From the IMG/VR virus record IMGVR_UViG_3300025168_000254, positions 1 through 37,014 of that record: a DNA stretch of 37,014 bases; one strand, written 5' to 3'. The notes beneath the pieces are model-generated. The model was not told the DNA's origin, did no database searches, and saw only the letters and a list, made by a program, of their open reading frames with translations. Source of the stretch: a virus. Below are positions 7,635 through 15,739 of the stretch, one piece after another; within the stretch, counting starts at the first letter, position 1, and each line of letters starts with the position of its first letter. The position numbers and the translations under genes are program-made.

Positions 7635-7863
7635 AATAATTTGAAAGGGTTATCGACATGTGCCAGTCAAATCTCCCCCTCTTCGATTTTCAGGGTGTGT
7701 AGGGTATATTTTTTGTCACTGGCCAAGGTACATAAAATGGCTACAGGTCAATGATTCCGCCAGATTCCAAGGGATTTCATATCCATAGTGAGTGTTTATG
7801 CGGGTTCCAGCGCTTTTAATATATTTCTGCGCTTGTCTTATCGTGGGTGTTTCTGTTTTTTTC

Positions 7864-7893
7864 TAGACATACATAATTCATTGATGGTATAAA
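7864..7893 (+). promoter_or_regulatory. Candidate early host (sigma70-type) promoter
   Basis: TAGACA at 7864-7869 and TATAAA at 7888-7893 are each one base from consensus and are 18 bases apart. Transcription would begin near 7900, within the palindrome at 7902-7922, and run into the early genes from 7950. This is the expected place for the promoter used by host polymerase on entry. Confidence 0.55.
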
Positions 7894-7904
7894 TGTATTC
7901 ATAA

Positions 7905-7919
7905 GTGTAATTGATGCAC
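7905..7919. promoter_or_regulatory. Candidate operator over the early promoter start
   Basis: GTGTAATTGATGCAC, inside the inverted repeat TAAGTG (7902-7907) and CACTTA (7917-7922). It matches the 15-bp core of the palindrome in front of the MarR-like gene at 12 of 15 positions with the same spacing. Bound repressor here would block the early promoter. Confidence 0.5.
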
Positions 7920-7949
7920 TTAATAACGACATTATGGAGTAACTGAAAT

Positions 7950-8264
7950 ATGTCAAACTTAAACCTAGATGAACTTAAACAGATTAAGTTTAAACAACTA
8001 CAAAACAACCAGGTTGTCATTACTTATGCAAATGGTGATGAGGCTTTTTACTCATATAACAGACTAATAGTCTTGAGGGTTTCAATACCTGAATGGGCTG
8101 ATGCTGATGGGATTAAACATTGGTACAACACATATCTAAATGTAAACGCCTGGGATTACTCAAGAACTACCGGCAAATATAGAAATATATTCCTAGGCGA
8201 AACCAAAAGAGAAACAGAAAAGAAAATCAAATCAGGCGCTTATATCCTGAAGGATTTGGATTGA
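7950..8264 (+). CDS. Early protein of unknown function
   Basis: 104 residues, first gene of the early block. GGAGTAAC at 7936-7943 supports the ATG. Residues 20-50 read as beta-strands (QVVITYANGDEAFYSYNRLI) and the motif WDYSRTTGKYRNIFLGE at about 71-87 is distinctive; S-x-T-T-x-K-x-x-N-x-F-L is a pattern shared by small phage proteins of unknown function. It is not recognised as an enzyme. First-expressed genes of T7-like phages usually block host defence or redirect host functions. Confidence 0.75.
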   Translation: MSNLNLDELKQIKFKQLQNNQVVITYANGDEAFYSYNRLIVLRVSIPEWADADGIKHWYNTYLNVNAWDYSRTTGKYRNIFLGETKRETEKKIKSGAYILKDLD

Positions 8265-8265
8265 T

Positions 8266-8457
8266 ATGATTATTGAAATTCAAATAAACACAGAAAATAG
8301 CGCATTTGAAGATTCTTCAGAAACACAAAGGATATTAAAAAACTTAGTTAATAATCAGATTAACTATGATTCTGAAAAATATGAAGAAATATTATTAAGA
8401 GATATAAATGGAAACAAAATAGGCCATGCAGCAATTAACAACAACTGGAGTAACTAA
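8266..8457 (+). CDS. Small early protein, unknown function
   Basis: 63 residues, acidic, beginning MIIEIQINTENSAFEDSS with a helical middle (TQRILKNLVNNQINY) and a C-terminal beta-like part (LLRDINGNKIGHAAI). It starts one base after the stop of the preceding gene, so it depends on coupling; no good ribosome site is present. No family is recognised. Confidence 0.65.
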   Translation: MIIEIQINTENSAFEDSSETQRILKNLVNNQINYDSEKYEEILLRDINGNKIGHAAINNNWSN

Positions 8458-8458
8458 A

Positions 8459-8644
8459 ATGGAAAACATTAAATATTGGGAATGTGAATATATTGATTCA
8501 TCTGAGTTTGATGGTGATGGAAAATGTGAAGAGTATTACAAACATAAATCAACCGGTAAGACTTTTACATTGACGCTGGACTTAGATGATGCAAGAGAAC
8601 AAGCAACATGGGAAGAAACAACAGAAGATGAGGGGGCCAAGTAA
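8459..8644 (+). CDS. Small acidic early protein
   Basis: 61 residues from the ATG at 8459, chosen because GGAGTAAC at 8447-8454 lies just upstream; an earlier in-frame ATG at 8426 would overlap the previous gene and place this ribosome site inside the coding region. The protein is strongly acidic (about 18 Asp/Glu against 7 Lys/Arg) with a likely beta-hairpin GKTFTLTLDLDDA. The stop overlaps the next gene (TAATGA at 8642-8647). No known family; acidic early proteins can be DNA mimics or inhibitors. Confidence 0.65.
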   Translation: MENIKYWECEYIDSSEFDGDGKCEEYYKHKSTGKTFTLTLDLDDAREQATWEETTEDEGAK

Positions 8645-8973
8645 TGACATTAACAACACTTTTAATATTTGGATTAATTGACAATGGTGTACTTATACTG
8701 GCCTTCTATTTCACTTACTTAAATTTAGAAATTCTTATTGAAAGAAAACTAAATATTAAAGTAAGTGCTTTTTTAATTGGTGTATATAGTGCTGGGATTT
8801 CAAATAGCATATCCGATGCGCTTGGGTTTCTATTACAGGCTGAATTTTTAGCTGGTGTAATAGTTGGCCTTGGTTGTCTGATTGCTATGGCATTAATTCC
8901 GGTACTTGAATATTTCAAGAATAAAAAGCAAAAAGAAGAGGAAAAAGAAGTTAATATTTACGATTTCAAATAG
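8644..8973 (+). CDS. Early membrane protein
   Basis: 109 residues with about three hydrophobic segments: residues 4-25 (TTLLIFGLIDNGVLILAFYF), about 41-62 (AFLIGVYSAGISNSISDALG) and about 66-88 (EFLAGVIVGLGCLIAMALIPV), then a Lys/Glu-rich cytoplasmic tail (FKNKKQKEEEKEV). It is coupled to the previous gene by a one-base overlap. An early inner-membrane protein could act in superinfection exclusion or host takeover. The family is not recognised. Confidence 0.65.
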   Translation: MTLTTLLIFGLIDNGVLILAFYFTYLNLEILIERKLNIKVSAFLIGVYSAGISNSISDALGFLLQAEFLAGVIVGLGCLIAMALIPVLEYFKNKKQKEEEKEVNIYDFK

Positions 8974-9006
8974 TACAAATATTGAACAATAAAATGATCT
9001 AAAAGA

Positions 9007-9045
9007 AACCGCTACAGATACTGAAAATATTAGCCTGTAGCGGTT
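9007..9045. promoter_or_regulatory. Perfect 11-bp inverted repeat between early genes
   Basis: AACCGCTACAG at 9007-9017 pairs with CTGTAGCGGTT at 9035-9045 around a 17-base loop. It is G+C-rich against an A+T-rich background and lies 38 bases before an ATG. No T-run follows, so it is not a classic intrinsic terminator; an RNase III site, an mRNA stabiliser or a protein-binding site is possible. Confidence 0.6.
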
Positions 9046-9083
9046 CACACAAAAAACACAAAATAAAAAATGGAGTAACAAAA

Positions 9084-9662
9084 ATGAACACACAAAAACA
9101 ATTAGAACACCAGTACAAATATTATTACATTGTTGATATTTGGAATGGTGAAGGGTATTCAGATAGTGAAGGCTATCTAATCAAAATAGAAAAATCTAAT
9201 GCTATTGATGAATACATAACATTATTAAATTACATGAAATCAATAACAGTCCAAGACATAACAGAAGACTGGTTAGACTGGAGATGTAAAGCAGAGAAAA
9301 ATGAAGTTAAATTTAGTAACTCAATCAGTTTTTATTATGGAGATGCTGATACATTTAATGAACATAATGATTGTTGTGAAGATGCCGGATGTGTAACCGC
9401 TTATGAATGGGATTCATTAAGTGATAAACAGCAATTAATGATAGCGCCTACAGTTTGTCACCATGAATTTGATGATGAGTGGAAATATGATTTTCTTGGA
9501 ATGGCTGAGAAGTGTATCACTGATGGTCATGAAGATTCTACATCAGAACAAATATTCAATGATGTTCATACTGATTATGATTATGAAGATGCTGAATTTA
9601 TATTATTTAATTTAAAAGATGTAAAACTTCAAGACGCTAAATTGGTGGGGGGTGATGAATGA
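9084..9662 (+). CDS. Large acidic early protein, possible DNA mimic
   Basis: 192 residues with roughly 43 Asp/Glu against about 15 Lys/Arg, clustered in the C-terminal two thirds (FNEHNDCCEDAG, HEFDDEWKYDFLG, VHTDYDYEDAEF). Many aromatic residues accompany the acids. GGAGTAAC at 9072-9079 fits the ATG. T7 carries the acidic DNA mimic Ocr in the same early position, but there is no sequence resemblance to it. Two CC/CH-type clusters (DCCED, VCHHEF) could bind metal. Anti-restriction or polymerase inhibition are possibilities from charge alone. Confidence 0.7.
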   Translation: MNTQKQLEHQYKYYYIVDIWNGEGYSDSEGYLIKIEKSNAIDEYITLLNYMKSITVQDITEDWLDWRCKAEKNEVKFSNSISFYYGDADTFNEHNDCCEDAGCVTAYEWDSLSDKQQLMIAPTVCHHEFDDEWKYDFLGMAEKCITDGHEDSTSEQIFNDVHTDYDYEDAEFILFNLKDVKLQDAKLVGGDE

Positions 9663-9724
9663 TTGCTGATTTCATTGTTGTATTAGTTTTAATGCATGTT
9701 GTGTATATGTTTTATAACTTATAA
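9659..9724 (+). CDS. Possible 21-residue hydrophobic peptide
   Basis: MIADFIVVLVLMHVVYMFYN plus one residue, a single membrane helix. It overlaps the acidic-protein gene by four bases (ATGA) and has GGGGGGTGA just upstream, which could act as a ribosome site. It ends 18 bases before the terminator, so it is the last frame of this unit. Confidence 0.4.
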   Translation: MIADFIVVLVLMHVVYMFYNL

Positions 9725-9741
9725 ATAGCCCAACCTTATAG

Positions 9742-9777
9742 AAGGCCCTAGAATTCATTTTTTAGGGCCTTTTTTTA
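9742..9777 (+). terminator. Strong intrinsic terminator of the first early unit
   Basis: AAGGCCCTA at 9742-9750 pairs with TAGGGCCTT at 9763-9771 over a 12-base loop and runs into TTTTTTT. It would end transcripts from the early promoter at 7864 before the next gene cluster. Confidence 0.85.
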
Positions 9778-10141
9778 TGCCTCATGATACATCATACATC
9801 TATGAATTTAATACACCCATAACAGGCATTTTAGCGCCATTTAAAACATATATTTTTTATGTATCAATAACACCTATTTTAAACCCATAGAAATCAGCCG
9901 GAACCAAGGGCCAAGATTAGCGCCCAATCTAAAATTATTTTTAATTTATTTTTAGGCCCTGATTTTTCCAAAATCCAAAAACATTATACGAACATCAGGA
10001 TTTTTTTTGATTTTTTGATGATTTTTTAGGGCCATATATCGTGTTCAGGGCCGGAATTATCGTGTTCATAGCAGCATGGGTACCTTTAAAAAACAGAAGT
10101 ACACCTTTAGATACACAAATCTAAATATGGAGTAAACATTT
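9778..10141 (+). other. Non-coding A+T-rich stretch with T-tracts and GGCC repeats
   Basis: 364 bases without a gene. CCTGAT at 9957-9962 and ATCAGG at 9994-9999 are inverted, followed by eight T; GGCCCT (9955) and AGGGCC (10027, 10047) recur beside T-tracts. TATCGTGTTCA occurs twice, at about 10037 and 10059. The right end holds a phage-promoter-like motif. The first hairpin could be a second terminator. Several T-tracts suggest bent DNA; a protein-binding or replication role is possible but not shown. Confidence 0.4.
10097..10113 (+). promoter_or_regulatory. Candidate phage-RNA-polymerase promoter
   Basis: AAGTACACCTTTAGATA, 29 bases before the gene at 10142. It shares [AG]AGT[AG]CA[CT]nT[AT]T[AG]GATA with the sites at 15742, 22109 and 35283. 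It lies after a strong terminator, so the next cluster would need a promoter here. Confidence 0.5.
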
Positions 10142-10504
10142 ATGAGTAAAACAGATAAGTATTATGAGCAATGGATAGTTGATGATAGCTATTCAGATAA
10201 TAATGTATCGAAGATTGATAGGTATGGTGATCGTGTTGATAGCATTGCTAAACCTGAACAACTAGAATTAAGACTAAACAGTTTATGTTCAGTTATATTT
10301 AAACCAAATGACCAAGAGTTATTTCAGATATCAGGTACTGATCCTGATGAGGCGATAGCTAATGCTAAAATAACAGTAGGTGATTTGATAGGTGACTGGG
10401 AATCACTAGATGATAATACAAAAGAAAAGTCTAGCCCTTACATGATTCATTTAATGTCAATGTTAAAATGTTTTAGTGCAATAGAATACAAGGTGGTTCA
10501 ATGA
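10142..10504 (+). CDS. Protein of unknown function, first gene of second early unit
   Basis: 120 residues, acidic, beginning MSKTDKYYEQWIVDDSYSDN. Residues 58-100 (FQISGTDPDEAIANAKITVG, then DLIGDWESLDDNTKEK) look like a mixed alpha/beta region. GGAGTAAAC at 10129-10137 supports the start. It overlaps the next gene by four bases (ATGA at 10501-10504). No catalytic motif is evident. Confidence 0.7.
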   Translation: MSKTDKYYEQWIVDDSYSDNNVSKIDRYGDRVDSIAKPEQLELRLNSLCSVIFKPNDQELFQISGTDPDEAIANAKITVGDLIGDWESLDDNTKEKSSPYMIHLMSMLKCFSAIEYKVVQ

Positions 10505-10740
10505 AAGAACGACAAGATAGAATAGATTGTAATAGTGTTAATGATTTAGAATTAGATAGAACTAATATGATTGAATTTCTAACAAATTCATGCAGCAAAG
10601 CTGAACTTATCGTGATGAAAGAACATTATGAGAAATTAATAGATCATAAGATACTCAAACTAGAATCATCATTGTGGTTAATATTAATTTATAAAGTTTT
10701 ATACCAAAAAGAACAGTCTAGTAAATTAATCAGTGGTTGA
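10501..10740 (+). CDS. Small protein of unknown function
   Basis: 79 residues, mainly helical and charged (MKERQDRIDCNSVNDLELD, SKAELIVMKEHYEKLIDHKI). It is coupled upstream by ATGA and overlaps the following frame by eight bases. AAGGTGG at 10490-10496 is a plausible ribosome site. No family recognised. Confidence 0.65.
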   Translation: MKERQDRIDCNSVNDLELDRTNMIEFLTNSCSKAELIVMKEHYEKLIDHKILKLESSLWLILIYKVLYQKEQSSKLISG

Positions 10741-10972
10741 TATATTAAAAATGGATGGTTTTGATGATGCCATTATAGGTGTCCAAGAAAACATACAACC
10801 TAAAATAGTTTATGACTTATGGAAGATGGTAGAAATACTTAATGAAGAAGGCATGTCTACAGAAGATGCGCTAGATCACATAGGTTATAACATCACATCT
10901 ACATATGTAGGTGAAACCACACCAATTATAGTAGATACCAAGAAAACACTAGAGGATATCGTGTCCATGTGA
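10733..10972 (+). CDS. Small acidic protein of unknown function
   Basis: 79 residues if the GTG at 10733 is used; an ATG at 10751 gives 73. The GTG overlaps the previous stop and would be translated by coupling; neither start has a clear ribosome site. The sequence is acidic and helical (DGFDDAIIGVQENIQPKIV, YDLWKMVEILNEEGMSTEDA). It ends 27 bases before a strong terminator, so it closes this unit. Confidence 0.6.
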   Translation: MVDILKMDGFDDAIIGVQENIQPKIVYDLWKMVEILNEEGMSTEDALDHIGYNITSTYVGETTPIIVDTKKTLEDIVSM

Positions 10973-10999
10973 ATTTATATAGCATCCTCATGTTATAGG

Positions 11000-11036
11000 C
11001 TTATAGGTACCTAGCCCTGGTGCCTATAAGTTTTTT
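11000..11036 (+). terminator. Strong intrinsic terminator of the second early unit
   Basis: CTTATAGGTACC at 11000-11011 pairs with GGTGCCTATAAG at 11019-11030 (12 pairs, one T-G wobble) over a 7-base loop, then TTTTTT. Confidence 0.85.
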
Positions 11037-11073
11037 CAATTTAAAGGGTTTACAACTCAAACACTAGCTGATA

Positions 11074-11088
11074 GTGTAATTAATACAT
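11074..11088. promoter_or_regulatory. Candidate operator before the gene at 11100
   Basis: GTGTAATTAATACAT, flanked as TA-G-TGTA and TACA-T-TA. It matches the core of the palindrome at the MarR-like gene at 12 of 15 positions with the same spacing. It ends 11 bases before the ATG, so a bound protein would cover the transcription or translation start region. TTTACA at 11049-11054 could be a -35 element but the -10 is unclear. Confidence 0.45.
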
Positions 11089-11099
11089 TAGGAGTAATT

Positions 11100-11354
11100 A
11101 TGGAACAATTAGTGCAAACAAATAATTATAAATCGAATGTTCGTACTAACCTAGTTAGTATAATTGATCATTTAAAAGATGTACTGCATTTACTTGAATT
11201 AAGAGATGCATTACAGGAAAAGATTGATACATATGAAGTTGATAACACATCATATGATTATAAAGATTATAGAAGAGACACTTTGATATTAAGTTATTTG
11301 AATAAAAAAGTTAATGATAGTAAAAGAATTAAAACAGATTACCAGTATGCCTAG
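11100..11354 (+). CDS. Small helical protein of unknown function near the lysogeny region
   Basis: 84 residues, almost entirely helical: LVSIIDHLKDVLHLLELRDA, then ALQEKIDTYEV and a basic C-terminal part (LNKKVNDSKRIKTDYQYA). GGAGTAAT at 11091-11098 supports the ATG but spacing is short. It stands alone between a terminator and a palindrome-rich stretch, with an operator-like site in front. A regulatory or antirepressor role is possible from context only. Confidence 0.6.
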   Translation: MEQLVQTNNYKSNVRTNLVSIIDHLKDVLHLLELRDALQEKIDTYEVDNTSYDYKDYRRDTLILSYLNKKVNDSKRIKTDYQYA

Positions 11355-11369
11355 CAGTCAGACTGGTGA

Positions 11370-11395
11370 TGCAATTTTGATTAATCATTGTTGCA
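11370..11395. promoter_or_regulatory. Nested palindrome, operator-like
   Basis: The perfect palindrome TGATTAATCA (11378-11387) is centred between TGCAA (11370-11374) and TTGCA (11391-11395), each three bases away. Further inverted pairs surround it: ACCAGT 11341-11346 with ACTGGT 11362-11367, and AGATCT 11415-11420 with AGATCT 11424-11429. This density suggests a control region. Confidence 0.45.
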
Positions 11396-11467
11396 GAGAG
11401 AGAGAAGTAGGCTGAGATCTTTTAGATCTTATAGTGACTGCATAAACAATGTAAATATTATATTGTG

Positions 11468-11526
11468 TAATCTTGTGTGTAAGGTTGTGGATCATATGAA
11501 TGGCATGATCCATAACCGAAAGATTA
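11468..11526. promoter_or_regulatory. Large two-tier inverted repeat
   Basis: The inner stem pairs GGTTGTGGATCAT (11483-11495) with ATGATCCATAACC (11505-11517), 13 pairs with one wobble and a 9-base loop. The outer stem pairs TAATCTT (11468-11474) with AAGATTA (11520-11526). No T-run follows and no D- or T-arm is present, so it is neither a plain terminator nor a tRNA. It could be a structured RNA or a protein-binding site upstream of the regulator. Confidence 0.6.
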
Positions 11527-11546
11527 TAATAACAAAGGACTGAACC

Positions 11547-11588
11547 ATGATAAAACATTTATGTAGTAATAATATGTTAGGTGTGTAA
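11547..11588 (+). CDS. Possible 13-residue leader peptide
   Basis: MIKHLCSNNMLGV, preceded by AAAGGA at 11534-11539 at good spacing. Its end lies inside the palindrome at 11576-11604. It may be chance; if translated it could couple to expression of the regulator. Confidence 0.2.
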   Translation: MIKHLCSNNMLGV

Positions 11589-11604
11589 TATATACACAAC
11601 TAAC
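11576..11604. promoter_or_regulatory. 29-bp near-perfect palindrome, likely operator of the MarR-like gene
   Basis: The arms are GTTAG-g-TGTGTA (11576-11587) and TACACA-a-CTAAC (11593-11604), matching at 11 of 12 positions around a 5-base A/T centre. It ends 17 bases before the regulator ATG and six before its ribosome site. MarR proteins bind such palindromes as dimers and commonly control their own gene. Confidence 0.65.
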
Positions 11605-11621
11605 GATAATGGAGTAACGAA

Positions 11622-11975
11622 ATGTGTTTAGTTAATAAAACAATTACAGAAACTGGAAACAAGATGTACCAGTTTGTTGATAAGTTTAGATCTTTAAATA
11701 ATGAGATCCAAGCTCAAACTATGCAGACATTTTTATTTGTCGCAATGTCTACACAAAGAGAAATACCTATGCAAGATATGGGAAAAGCATTGGGCCTAAG
11801 TCAGGCTAGTGTTAGTAGGAACATTTCTTTTTTTAATAAAATAAACAGACATAGAAAAAGGGGTACAGGTTTATTAAGTACAAGGGAAGATCCACAGGAA
11901 AGAAGGAGAAAATTGGTTCATGTAACAAACCCAGGGTTGAAGTTTTTTCATGAACTAGAGGATATAATTAAATAA
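11622..11975 (+). CDS. MarR-like winged-helix regulator
   Basis: 117 residues, shorter than typical MarR proteins (about 140). The sequence TFLFVAMSTQREIPMQDMG leads into a helix-turn-helix with recognition helix LSQASVSRNISFFN at about residues 62-75, then a wing KRGTGLLSTREDPQERRRK and a closing strand and helix (LVHVTNPGLKFFHELEDII). The EDPxxRRxKxVxxT pattern is characteristic of MarR wings. It sits beside the integrase and behind a strong palindrome, and similar sites occur at the early promoter and before the 11100 gene. It is therefore a candidate lysogeny repressor. GGAGTAAC at 11611-11618 supports the start. Confidence 0.75.
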   Translation: MCLVNKTITETGNKMYQFVDKFRSLNNEIQAQTMQTFLFVAMSTQREIPMQDMGKALGLSQASVSRNISFFNKINRHRKRGTGLLSTREDPQERRRKLVHVTNPGLKFFHELEDIIK

Positions 11976-11988
11976 TTGGATTAGGAAT

Positions 11989-12076
11989 TGGTGCCTAGGG
12001 CGGGATTTGAACCCGCATGATCGTAAGATCGCAAGATTTTAAGTCTTGTGTGTATACCAATTCCACCACCCAGGCA
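11989..12076 (-). tRNA. tRNA-Leu (anticodon UAA), probable attP
   Basis: On the minus strand the sequence folds as a complete class II tRNA. The 7-pair acceptor stem TGCCTGG/CTAGGCA has one G-T pair, and the 3' CCA is encoded (TGG at 11989-11991). The anticodon stem CAAGA/TCTTG encloses loop CTTAAAA, giving anticodon TAA. A variable-arm stem GATC/GATC and a T-arm GCGGG-TTCAAAT-CCCGC are present. It lies directly before the integrase gene, the classic place for an attachment site within a tRNA. UUA is visibly the main leucine codon of the phage genes, so the tRNA could also support translation. Confidence 0.9.
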
Positions 12077-12093
12077 TTTGGAGTAACTATATT

Positions 12094-13116
12094 ATGTCAA
12101 TACGAGAGAGAAATAAAGGATATCAAATAGATATCAGTCATAACCACAAAAGATATAGACTTAGTATTCATGGTGATAAGTTAGATGCTAATGTCTTAGA
12201 GCAACAAATTAAAAAAGAACTTAAACTTGGTAAATCATGGGATCAAGTTATGCAGTTAATTGATCTTAATAATAAAAATTATACTGTTGGTGCAATCTTT
12301 AATAAAATAAAGACTACTTATAATAGTATCAATGCAGTTAAAAAGGCCCAGTCAGTCGTGAATGATCTTGGCCCTGATTTAAAAGTAAGTGATTTAAATG
12401 AAGATTATATAGAAAAATGTATAGACCAATGGCGAACCAATGGTAATACCAATGCAACTATAAATAGAAAACAAGCAGTCATATCTAAAATGTGTTCTTA
12501 TGCTTATAAAAAAGGATATATAAAAAATAGGCCTGAGATCACATGGAAAAAAGAAGGATCAGGTAATTATAGATACATGCAAGAACATGAACAGATGGCC
12601 ATGTGTAATATATTAAAAGGTGCTGGTCATACTGATATGGAAGATCTAATCAATGTTGCATGTGATACTGGTTTTAGATATTCAGAGTTAAAAAGAATAA
12701 ATCTAAATAGAGATTTACATGGTGATTCTTTAACATGTGTTGCTACAAAAAATGACACTATAAGAACTATACCATTAACAAAAAGAACTATAGTTATATT
12801 GAAAAGAAGGGGAAACTTTCCTTTTGCAAATATAACAGATGAATATAAAAGAGATGCCTGGGATTATGGAAGGGTTAAACTTGGACTTGAAAATGACAAG
12901 CAGTTTACTTTTCATTGCACTAGACATACATGCGCAAGTCGATTAGTACAAGGTAACATGAGCATACAAGTAGTACAGGAATGGCTAGGCCATAAAACTA
13001 TTAAAATGACTTTAAGATATGCGCACTTAAATAATAAGAATCTTGTTAGAGGCAGAGATGTACTTGAAAACATTAGTTGTGACAATAACAGTGACAATAA
13101 TGTATTAAGTATGTGA
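12094..13116 (+). CDS. int: Tyrosine-recombinase integrase
   Basis: 340 residues from the ATG at 12094, chosen because GGAGTAAC lies at 12080-12087; a TTG at 12046 is in frame but would extend the gene through the tRNA. The N-terminal third resembles arm and core-binding domains (YQIDISHNHKRYRLSIHG). The catalytic domain shows Arg in DTGFRYSELKRI, His-x-x-Arg in FHCTRHTCASRL, His in WLGHKTIKM and the nucleophile Tyr in TLRYAHLNNKNL. It would recombine attP with a host tRNA-Leu gene to form a prophage. Adjacent features are the MarR-like regulator and the tRNA. Confidence 0.9.
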   Translation: MSIRERNKGYQIDISHNHKRYRLSIHGDKLDANVLEQQIKKELKLGKSWDQVMQLIDLNNKNYTVGAIFNKIKTTYNSINAVKKAQSVVNDLGPDLKVSDLNEDYIEKCIDQWRTNGNTNATINRKQAVISKMCSYAYKKGYIKNRPEITWKKEGSGNYRYMQEHEQMAMCNILKGAGHTDMEDLINVACDTGFRYSELKRINLNRDLHGDSLTCVATKNDTIRTIPLTKRTIVILKRRGNFPFANITDEYKRDAWDYGRVKLGLENDKQFTFHCTRHTCASRLVQGNMSIQVVQEWLGHKTIKMTLRYAHLNNKNLVRGRDVLENISCDNNSDNNVLSM

Positions 13117-13250
13117 TATGCTACTTTGGAGATGTTGGAAATAGTAGGTTGTGATATGGACTATAGACTTAAAATCACAGATATAGACTAATACATGAGT
13201 GGAAGTATATAAGTTGTATATCATAACCTTACTATAATAACTAACTATAC

Positions 13251-13271
13251 ACTGGTAATGACTATTCCAGT
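13251..13271 (+). promoter_or_regulatory. Small inverted repeat just before the RNA polymerase gene
   Basis: ACTGGTAAT at 13251-13259 pairs with ATTCCAGT at 13264-13271 with one bulged base and a 4-base loop. It ends 11 bases before the ATG and could influence translation or bind a regulator. The rest of the gap 13117-13282 holds no clear gene; TATATAAGTTGTATATC-like words occur near 13207 but no convincing promoter. Confidence 0.35.
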
Positions 13272-13282
13272 AGCGAGTAATT

Positions 13283-15739
13283 ATGGTGACAAAAAAAGGT
13301 GACATTAAGGATCTTTTTGATGAACAGATAGCGATAGAAGAGGCTATGGCCGACACTGGTAAGTCTAGATATCACAAAAAACAAAGGGTAAACAAAGAAT
13401 CTCACAACGAAAGTCTTACAGTATATGGTAAAGCATTGCTCAAAAGATCTTATGCAGAATTTCAAAAACTTATAGATCATGAGTTTAGTAATAAAAGAAC
13501 AGGGCCTAAATTAATTGCTCATACCATTCTCAAAGATATAGATACTAAAACATTAGCAGTCATTGTTGCTAAGAAAATTATTGATGGTATATCACATAAA
13601 AAGAAACTAACTGCATTTGCTATATCATTAGCTGGTGTAATTGAAGATGAATTATATTTTAGAGAATACGAAAAATATAATAAAGCACTATTTAAAAGTG
13701 TGGATCAAGATTTAAATAAAAGATCAAGTCATTATGGATATAGAAGACAAAAACAATTAACACAATCTAAGAGATCAGGTTTTGAATGGAACTCATGGAC
13801 TACAAATGATAAAGCTCATATTGGTACTTTTTTAATAGAATTATTTATTAGATCTACTAACTTTTGTGAGATTCATTTAGTTAATAACACTATAGGTAAA
13901 AGATTTCATAACTATAAAATTATTGTACCCACCAATAAAGTGTTGGACTGGCTGAGAAAATGTGATGATTTCAATGAATTATTATTTCCGGAATATTTAC
14001 CTACTGTAATTATACCTAGAAAGTGGGAACATGGTATGTCAGAGGGTGGTGGATATTTACATCAAAATTTAAAAAACAAAATTATGCTGGTCACAGGCCA
14101 CAATATTACAACTCATAGAAACTTTTTAAATGATCTAAAATCTGCTGAGATGGAGTGTGTTATAGATGGTTTAAATGCAGTACAAAGTACAATGTATGAA
14201 ATAAATTTAGGTGTATTACAGGTTGCAGAAACTATTTATGAGTTTGAAGAATTTAACAAAGGATCACCAATAGTAACTAAAACAGAACTACAGTTACCAA
14301 ATAAACCACATGATATTGCAACTAATAAAAAAAGTTTATCTAAGTGGAAAGCAGATGCTACGATCATTTATACTTTGAATCAAAAATTAAAATCAAAACG
14401 ATTACAGTCAGCAAAGATATTAAGTATAGCTAGAAAATATTATGATGATCACAATAATACACTTGGGTTTCCTTGTAATTTAGATTTTAGATCAAGGCTT
14501 TATTATGTTCCAGGGTTTCTTAATCCCCAGGGAAATGATCTTGCTAAAGGTTTATTAAAGTTTAAAGAAAAGAAACCAATAGGTGCTGATGGTTACAGGT
14601 GGCTATGTATTCATTTAGCTAACACTTATGGTGAAGATAAATGTTCATTAGATGATAGGGAAAATTGGGCCTTAAATAATAAAGAAATGATACTAAATTG
14701 TAGTGAGGCCCCTCATGAAGATAGATCATGGATTCATGCAGATAAACCATTTCAATTCTTAGCTGCATGTATGGAATTTAGTAAAGTAGAGCAACATGGA
14801 TTAGGATATGAATCCAATTTACCCATACACATTGATGGAACCAATAATGGATTACAACATTTCAGTGCTATGTTTAGAGATAAACAAGGGGGAGTTGCTA
14901 CAAACTTAACTAATACTGATAAACCACAAGATATATATCAAATAGTAGCTGATAAAGTTATAGAGAAACTACAAAGTAGTAACGATCCTTTAGCTAAACA
15001 ATGGTTAGATTTCGGTATTGATAGGAAGGCCACTAAACGAACTGTAATGGTATTACCATATGGTGGTAAAAAATTTTCATGTGTCAAATTTATTGATGAA
15101 TATTATGAAGATAGAATTGAAAAAGGCGAAGTACCACCATTTACTGATAAAACTAAAGCATGTTTATTTTTAGCAAATATTGTATGGGATAGTATGGGTA
15201 ATACAGTAAGTAAAGCTAAAGAGGCTATGGACTGGTTACAATCTGTATCTAGATTAGTAACTAAATTAAATGCACCTGTTGTATGGGAAACACCATTAGG
15301 ATTTCCAATTAGACAGGCCTATTACGATACAAAAGATTTAGTTGTAAGAACTAAAATGATGGGAAGGATAAGAGTAAGATCGACTACTGATAAGATTAAT
15401 AAAAGAAAACAAAGCAATGGTATTAGCCCTAATTTTATACATGGGTTAGATGCTACTGCTATGTACCTAACAATAGATATTGCTAGATCAATGGGTATTG
15501 ATAACTTTGCAATGGTGCATGATAGTTATGGAACTCATGCATGTGATGTAGATAAGTTAGGGGATGCAACGAGAGCAGCCTTCTATGAGTTATATGGTGA
15601 TCATGATCCAATAACCATGTTAAGAGATCAGTTGGTAGAACTGTTACCTGAATCAGAACACAAGAAAATACCGGATTTACCCAGTAGAGGTGAACTTGAT
15701 ATTAACGAAATAAAGAACTCTAAGTATTTTTTTTGTTAA
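13283..15739 (+). CDS. T7-type single-subunit RNA polymerase
   Basis: 818 residues (T7 gp1 has 883). Catalytic motifs are intact: motif A HIDGTNNGLQHFSAMFRD with the metal-binding Asp, motif B KRTVMVLPYGGKKFS with Lys and Tyr, and motif C FAMVHDSYGTHACD with His-Asp. DFRSRLYYVPGFLNPQGND and PNFIHGLDATAMYL are further family signatures. It would transcribe replication and virion genes from phage-specific promoters. GCGAGTAATT at 13273-13282 is a weak ribosome site. Unlike T7, the gene lies behind two intrinsic terminators and the integrase, so it is probably expressed from its own promoter or by read-through from the lysogeny unit. Confidence 0.96.
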   Translation: MVTKKGDIKDLFDEQIAIEEAMADTGKSRYHKKQRVNKESHNESLTVYGKALLKRSYAEFQKLIDHEFSNKRTGPKLIAHTILKDIDTKTLAVIVAKKIIDGISHKKKLTAFAISLAGVIEDELYFREYEKYNKALFKSVDQDLNKRSSHYGYRRQKQLTQSKRSGFEWNSWTTNDKAHIGTFLIELFIRSTNFCEIHLVNNTIGKRFHNYKIIVPTNKVLDWLRKCDDFNELLFPEYLPTVIIPRKWEHGMSEGGGYLHQNLKNKIMLVTGHNITTHRNFLNDLKSAEMECVIDGLNAVQSTMYEINLGVLQVAETIYEFEEFNKGSPIVTKTELQLPNKPHDIATNKKSLSKWKADATIIYTLNQKLKSKRLQSAKILSIARKYYDDHNNTLGFPCNLDFRSRLYYVPGFLNPQGNDLAKGLLKFKEKKPIGADGYRWLCIHLANTYGEDKCSLDDRENWALNNKEMILNCSEAPHEDRSWIHADKPFQFLAACMEFSKVEQHGLGYESNLPIHIDGTNNGLQHFSAMFRDKQGGVATNLTNTDKPQDIYQIVADKVIEKLQSSNDPLAKQWLDFGIDRKATKRTVMVLPYGGKKFSCVKFIDEYYEDRIEKGEVPPFTDKTKACLFLANIVWDSMGNTVSKAKEAMDWLQSVSRLVTKLNAPVVWETPLGFPIRQAYYDTKDLVVRTKMMGRIRVRSTTDKINKRKQSNGISPNFIHGLDATAMYLTIDIARSMGIDNFAMVHDSYGTHACDVDKLGDATRAAFYELYGDHDPITMLRDQLVELLPESEHKKIPDLPSRGELDINEIKNSKYFFC

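Follow-up and report, generated by a model that had tools for sequence, protein, structure and literature searches.

For the way in which T7-like phages maintain lysogeny, control by a MarR-type regulator was hypothesized previously (PMC10134795, citing Boeckman 2022; PMC11321410) and is still a hypothesis. In temperate T7-like phages, Boeckman et al. 2022 (Virology 568:86) are cited as describing a MarR-like repressor upstream of the integrase, with proposed binding sites that flank the RNA polymerase promoter. For Pseudomonas phage LUZ100, MarR-based lysogeny control was also proposed; the published model places repression at the phi1 phage promoter before RNA polymerase, the host promoters P1 and P2 were mapped by the authors, and the phage yielded no stable lysogens (PMC10134795). 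The main text of that paper contains neither "operator" nor "palindrom", and the literature considered holds no demonstrated operator for the T7-like MarR lysogeny model. Here we describe three palindromic sites, O1, O2, and O3, in IMGVR_UViG_3300025168_000254, a marine, integrase-bearing metagenomic virus record of 37,014 bp (the window, analysed over its whole length) with a G + C content of 32.6% and a T7-like gene plan. The sites are probably operators of the phage's own autoregulated MarR-like repressor, placed at host-type early promoters and permitting lysogeny, a reading drawn from sequence comparison. Like the Boeckman phages, the window carries the regulator upstream of the integrase; unlike the sites proposed there, those of the window are found at promoters of early genes and in front of the regulator.

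Three palindromic sites at early transcription units

The sites and the elements closest to them are as follows.

7863–7895, + strand: predicted early promoter of host type (TAGACA-18-TATAAA), by direct reading; kept in the 82%-identical relative L013
7903–7921, strand-neutral: O1, AAGTGTA-ATTGA-TGCACTT, 11 nt past the -10 box and before the gene at 7950; second-best matrix match
9802–9816, strand-neutral: weak fourth candidate, ATGAATTTAATACAC, noncoding, before the gene at 10142; fourth matrix match (13.5)
11073–11089, strand-neutral: O2, AGTGTA-ATTAA-TACATT, lying over a weak promoter (TTTACA-17-TAGTGT) and before the gene at 11100; best matrix match
11576–11604, strand-neutral: O3, a 29-bp palindrome with core GTGTA-ATATA-TACAC, before the regulator; third matrix match

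The 15-bp cores are GTGTAATTGATGCAC (O1, 7905–7919, 45 bases before the ATG at 7950), GTGTAATTAATACAT (O2, 11074–11088, 26 bases before the ATG at 11100) and GTGTAATATATACAC (O3, 11583–11597, 39 bases before the regulator ATG at 11622). The full O3 palindrome, GTTAGGTGTGTAATATATACACAACTAAC, has 11 of its 14 pairs complementary. Direct reading bears out the initial annotation, which had reported these three sites with equal spacing and 12 of 15 positions of the O3 core matched by the other two.

When no more than one mismatch is allowed, the window contains the pattern GTGTA-N5-TACAC exactly three times, at these sites, where 0.98 occurrences are expected. The number alone is not significant, as 8 of 100 shuffles reach three, and the looser pattern first used, with two mismatches, is at background level (33 found, 25 expected). 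In the 60-bp windows before genes (957 bp in total), three sites are observed against 0.056 expected, a count that was not attained in any of 2000 shuffles. When single upstream windows are tested for any N5 palindrome the test is weak (P 0.008–0.15 for first-gene windows), and thus the weight rests on the letters common to several genomes. As the check proposed in the initial annotation, we built a symmetric weight matrix from 14 training sites in relatives, to which neither the window nor the relative 82% identical to it contributed, with the caveat that the training sites were picked using a pattern that the window had suggested. Its top three matches in the 37,014 bp are the three sites (21.8, 18.4, and 17.6), followed by 13.5 and then by 10.2 and lower, so the refuting condition named in the initial annotation, equally good matches spread randomly through coding DNA, does not refute the proposal. 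An exact 27-mer scan of viral contigs returned matches to the same virus only.

The position 9859–9873 scores 9.4 by the relatives-trained matrix and may form a low-affinity pair with the fourth candidate. Both weak sites lie in a long noncoding stretch (9772–10141) before the second early unit.

Site 1 had been placed at the best sigma70-like promoter, which is correct only in a loose sense. TAGACA-18-TATAAA does precede O1 and is kept in L013; it falls below the threshold of a generic sigma70 promoter scan, which did not single it out. In the relatives L094 and L096 the element likewise begins 11 nt past a good -10 box (TTTACA-17-TAGAAT and TTTACA-18-TACAAT), as O1 does after TATAAA, and a dimer bound there would cover the transcription start. 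O2 overlaps a weak -10 box downstream of the terminator at 10997–11033. O3 lies in the regulator leader; because the nearest convincing promoter (11434–11461) is ~120 bases upstream, O3 may serve as a roadblock, or it may block some weak promoter that lies closer. All these promoter assignments, in the window and in relatives, are sequence readings rather than mapped starts.

Conservation of the element in related phages

The nearest phages to the window are Votkovvirus S28C10, HTVC119P, and HTVC200P, which share its genome plan and the site before the first early gene and whose regulators are 47–58% identical to that of the window. HTVC119P and HTVC200P, unlike the window, carry a related site at the RNA polymerase gene and not at the regulator. 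In the nearest relative, L013, the O1 sequence AAGTGTA-ATTGA-TACACTT is perfectly palindromic, and O2 is both retained and tandemly duplicated at 9415–9460, as GTGTAAATAATACTA and GTGTAATTAATACAT. More broadly, the element RTGYA-N5-TRCAY precedes the first early gene of 11 Votkovvirus-like loci (the window, L013, S28C10, L097, HTVC119P, HTVC200P, L099, L102, L103, L105, and L107) and of 0 of 75 unrelated control loci that share only the family of the first gene (gene 7950). In L094 and L096 it precedes a later early unit as well as the regulator. A site ~40 bases before the regulator gene, matching the O3 position, is found in L094, L095, and L096; it reads GTGTA-ACATA-TACAC in the first two and GTGCA-ATGAT-TGCAC in L096, where both arms have changed symmetrically. 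The initial proposal of one conserved operator-like element that precedes both the early unit and the regulator is supported.

The expectation that relatives lacking the integrase would also lose the sites was borne out in the two examined, HTVC031P and HTVC168P, which have neither the regulator nor a site before the first gene. Palindromes do occur before their first genes and were rejected as operators, being stem I of hammerhead ribozymes. These type III hammerheads lie directly before the first early gene (L122:2480–2534, the HTVC031P 3' end; L123:2218–2273, the HTVC168P 3' end) and match Rfam RF00008 with E = 1.5e-6 (HTVC031P) and 3.5e-6 (HTVC168P), below the gathering score. HTVC109P shows a similar CTGATGAGCTC core by eye, with no Rfam match. 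One full-text literature search for pelagiphage hammerhead ribozymes returned no paper on the subject.

LUZ100 resembles the window in the order regulator, tRNA-Leu, integrase, RNA polymerase, and in its homologous regulator (40% identity over 86%), which retains the SQAS-SRN recognition-helix motif. It also has three N5-spaced palindromes, two of them on host promoters: GCGCA-N5-TGCGC occurs exactly three times, at 386 (over the P1 -10 box), 587 (over the P2 -10 box), and 6699 (just before the phage promoter phi2). In shuffles of LUZ100 the GCGCA class never reaches three copies, while some 5-mer class does in 6%; the P1 and P2 sites may represent one duplicated promoter. The half-site is GCGCA rather than the GTGTA of the window, and the LUZ100 palindromes overlap the -10 box, whereas O1 lies just after it. 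Only transitions separate GTGTA from GCGCA, and the two combine into a common RYGYA-N5-TRCRY. This operator link between the window and LUZ100, read from the sequences, is suggestive, not established. We advance only tentatively, as somewhat less than an even prospect, the wider proposal that SQAS-type temperate T7-like phages, from Votkovvirus-like phages to LUZ100, share the operator code RYGYA-N5-TRCRY at host-type early promoters, with lysogeny held at early transcription and integration at the tRNA between regulator and integrase also separating the RNA polymerase from those promoters.

The regulator and its cassette

In the window a small gene (11100) is followed by the MarR-like regulator, a tRNA-Leu on the opposite strand, the integrase, and the T7-type RNA polymerase. 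The regulator is thus directly upstream of the integrase and RNA polymerase, and the tRNA-Leu (11989–12075) lies just before the integrase, the arrangement of a MarR–integrase lysogeny cassette. The genes and elements are:

7950–8264, + strand: first early gene, function unassigned; weak phrog_21575/phrog_5643 match
10997–11033, + strand: intrinsic terminator closing the preceding early unit, by terminator prediction
11100–11354, + strand: small early gene of unknown function, kept together with the regulator cassette
11345–11500, + strand: highly conserved leader, predicted to form an RNA structure; possible promoter at 11434–11461 (GTGACT-16-TATTAT)
11622–11975, + strand: MarR-like regulator of 117 aa, predicted repressor; phrog_9665 and predicted fold
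11989–12075, - strand: tRNA-Leu (TAA), probable phage attachment site (attP), between regulator and integrase
12094–13116, + strand: tyrosine integrase; Pfam Phage_integrase, E = 6.2e-18
13283–15739, + strand: T7-type single-subunit RNA polymerase; Pfam RNA_pol, E = 3e-111

The regulator matches phrog_9665 "transcriptional regulator" (E = 2.4e-27), and 15 of 15 homologues match MarR_2 (best E 1.1e-4). Its AlphaFold2 model (predicted local distance difference test score 84) contains the winged helix-turn-helix core a1-a2-a3-a4-b-b-a5. The top Foldseek matches of the model belong to the MarR family, DNA-bound MarR, MepR, and SlyA among them. Structure comparison by VIA gave Z scores of 9.8–10.1 to MarR and MepR, with Z 10.1 and a root mean square deviation (rmsd) of 7.2 over 100 residues for MepR-DNA, and Z 9.9 and an rmsd of 1.7 over 79 residues for apo MarR. 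Like the cellular MarR, SlyA, and MepR repressors, the regulator has a predicted winged-helix fold, and its own gene is preceded by a palindrome resembling an operator; unlike them it is shorter (117 aa), the final C-terminal helix being missing in the model. As judged from the model, it is clearly MarR-like by fold and weakly so by sequence; the MarR-type assignment made initially stands for the predicted fold and falls short of the sequence family cut-offs.

The regulator occurs in at least 45 phage records and adjoins the integrase in every phage inspected (pelagiphages, CRP-361, S-CBP3, P-SSP7, and LUZ100), a set that covers Pelagibacter, Roseobacter, cyanobacterial, and Pseudomonas T7-like phages. 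MarR–integrase–RNA polymerase cassettes are widespread in marine T7-like phages. The "uncommon design" of the initial annotation is therefore not upheld, MarR control of T7-like lysogeny also being an already published hypothesis.

Two further conserved regions adjoin the cassette genes. The leader at 11345–11500 is near-invariant across five phages whose regulators are 63–82% identical to that of the window; a multi-branched RNA with two covarying pairs is predicted, an Rfam search of it returned no family, and it is possibly a structured RNA or an attachment or promoter element. Before the RNA polymerase gene, GACTTAAAAT and TACACnAGTG-like elements are kept (L110:4087–4245, L111:3924–4082, and window 13117–13282), possibly as a phage-polymerase promoter or a second regulatory site.

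Proposed mechanism and alternative roles

In the favoured reading, operators of an autoregulated repressor, the regulator would bind as a dimer to two half-sites (RTGYA and the mirror of it) spaced 10 bp or one helical turn apart. Bound dimers would stop host RNA polymerase at the first early gene (O1), at the unit leading into the regulator (O2), and at the regulator itself (O3), where occupancy would limit regulator synthesis by negative feedback. With host-driven early transcription off, no phage RNA polymerase would be made and, since T7-type middle and late genes need the phage RNA polymerase encoded downstream, the whole lytic programme would be off and integration at tRNA-Leu possible. 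Because the tRNA lies between the regulator and the integrase, integration there would cut the cassette between these two genes and leave integrase and RNA polymerase at the far prophage end, away from the early promoters, an argument that rests on gene order and standard tRNA-site integration. We infer the binding of the protein to the sites, repression by that binding, the lysogenic outcome, and the exact attP crossover.

Several observations weigh against this reading. L094 and L096 have no good site before the first early gene. O3 is gone from the nearest relative (L003, with an 82% identical regulator), the HTVC119P/HTVC200P group has no close site before the regulator, and in S28C10 the site is 204 bases upstream of it. 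In the window there is no site before the RNA polymerase gene and no top matrix match in 13117–13282; regulator sites at the RNA polymerase promoter, a feature of the published model, are thus absent. Pelagivirus phages, whose regulators are more distant, showed no such site in their early regions, and no consistent N5 operator was found in these phages or in 11 bacterial loci with related regulators. Finally, MarR Pfam and NCBIfam matches of the regulator are under curated cut-offs (MarR_2 E = 0.05, 14.2 bits against a cut-off of 27).

The same sites and regulator could instead serve early-gene shut-off in lytic growth, as feedback timing rather than lysogeny maintenance. Lytic HTVC022P infection shows high early expression of both the regulator and RNA polymerase, and the P-SSP7 relative has been discussed as redirecting transcription (PMC12753301); the failure of LUZ100 to give stable lysogens (PMC10134795) fits the same picture. 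However, the adjoining integrase in all phages inspected, and the lack of the regulator in the two integrase-less pelagiphages, make a purely lytic role unlikely.

A binder other than the regulator, either a host protein or another small phage DNA-binding protein, might be considered given that several early genes are of unassigned function and the site-bearing promoters vary between phages. We regard this as decidedly improbable: the sites track the regulator–integrase cassette and precede the regulator gene in several phages, and LUZ100, with an unrelated host, pairs its own site variant with a homologous regulator.

That the palindromes act as RNA hairpins at early mRNA 5' ends, in stability or processing, would suit the position of site 1 near the predicted transcript start, the G-U compatibility of some mismatches, and the hammerheads at the equivalent place in HTVC031P and HTVC168P. 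Yet letters and not just pairing recur between unrelated promoters of one genome (T2, G3, and A5 are kept, in part an effect of the search pattern), the LUZ100 P1 and P2 sites over the -10 box are upstream of the transcription start, and a ribozyme search of the window found none, leaving very little room for such a role. Promoters of the phage-encoded T7-type RNA polymerase are the least credible reading, for although the sites precede genes and have a common AT-rich core, and related sites stand upstream of the RNA polymerase gene of HTVC119P, HTVC200P, and L105, the sites are two-fold symmetric and their best matches lie in the early region only, none of them preceding a middle or late gene of the window.

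Relative to the sources available, the operator reading adds the sequence of the operator, phylogenetic support for it, and a location at early promoters. This points to the early promoters, and not the RNA polymerase promoter, as the likely control point. Defined candidate sites in an abundant marine phage group, together with the culturable Pseudomonas phage LUZ100 and its mapped promoters, make the MarR model of T7-like lysogeny testable.

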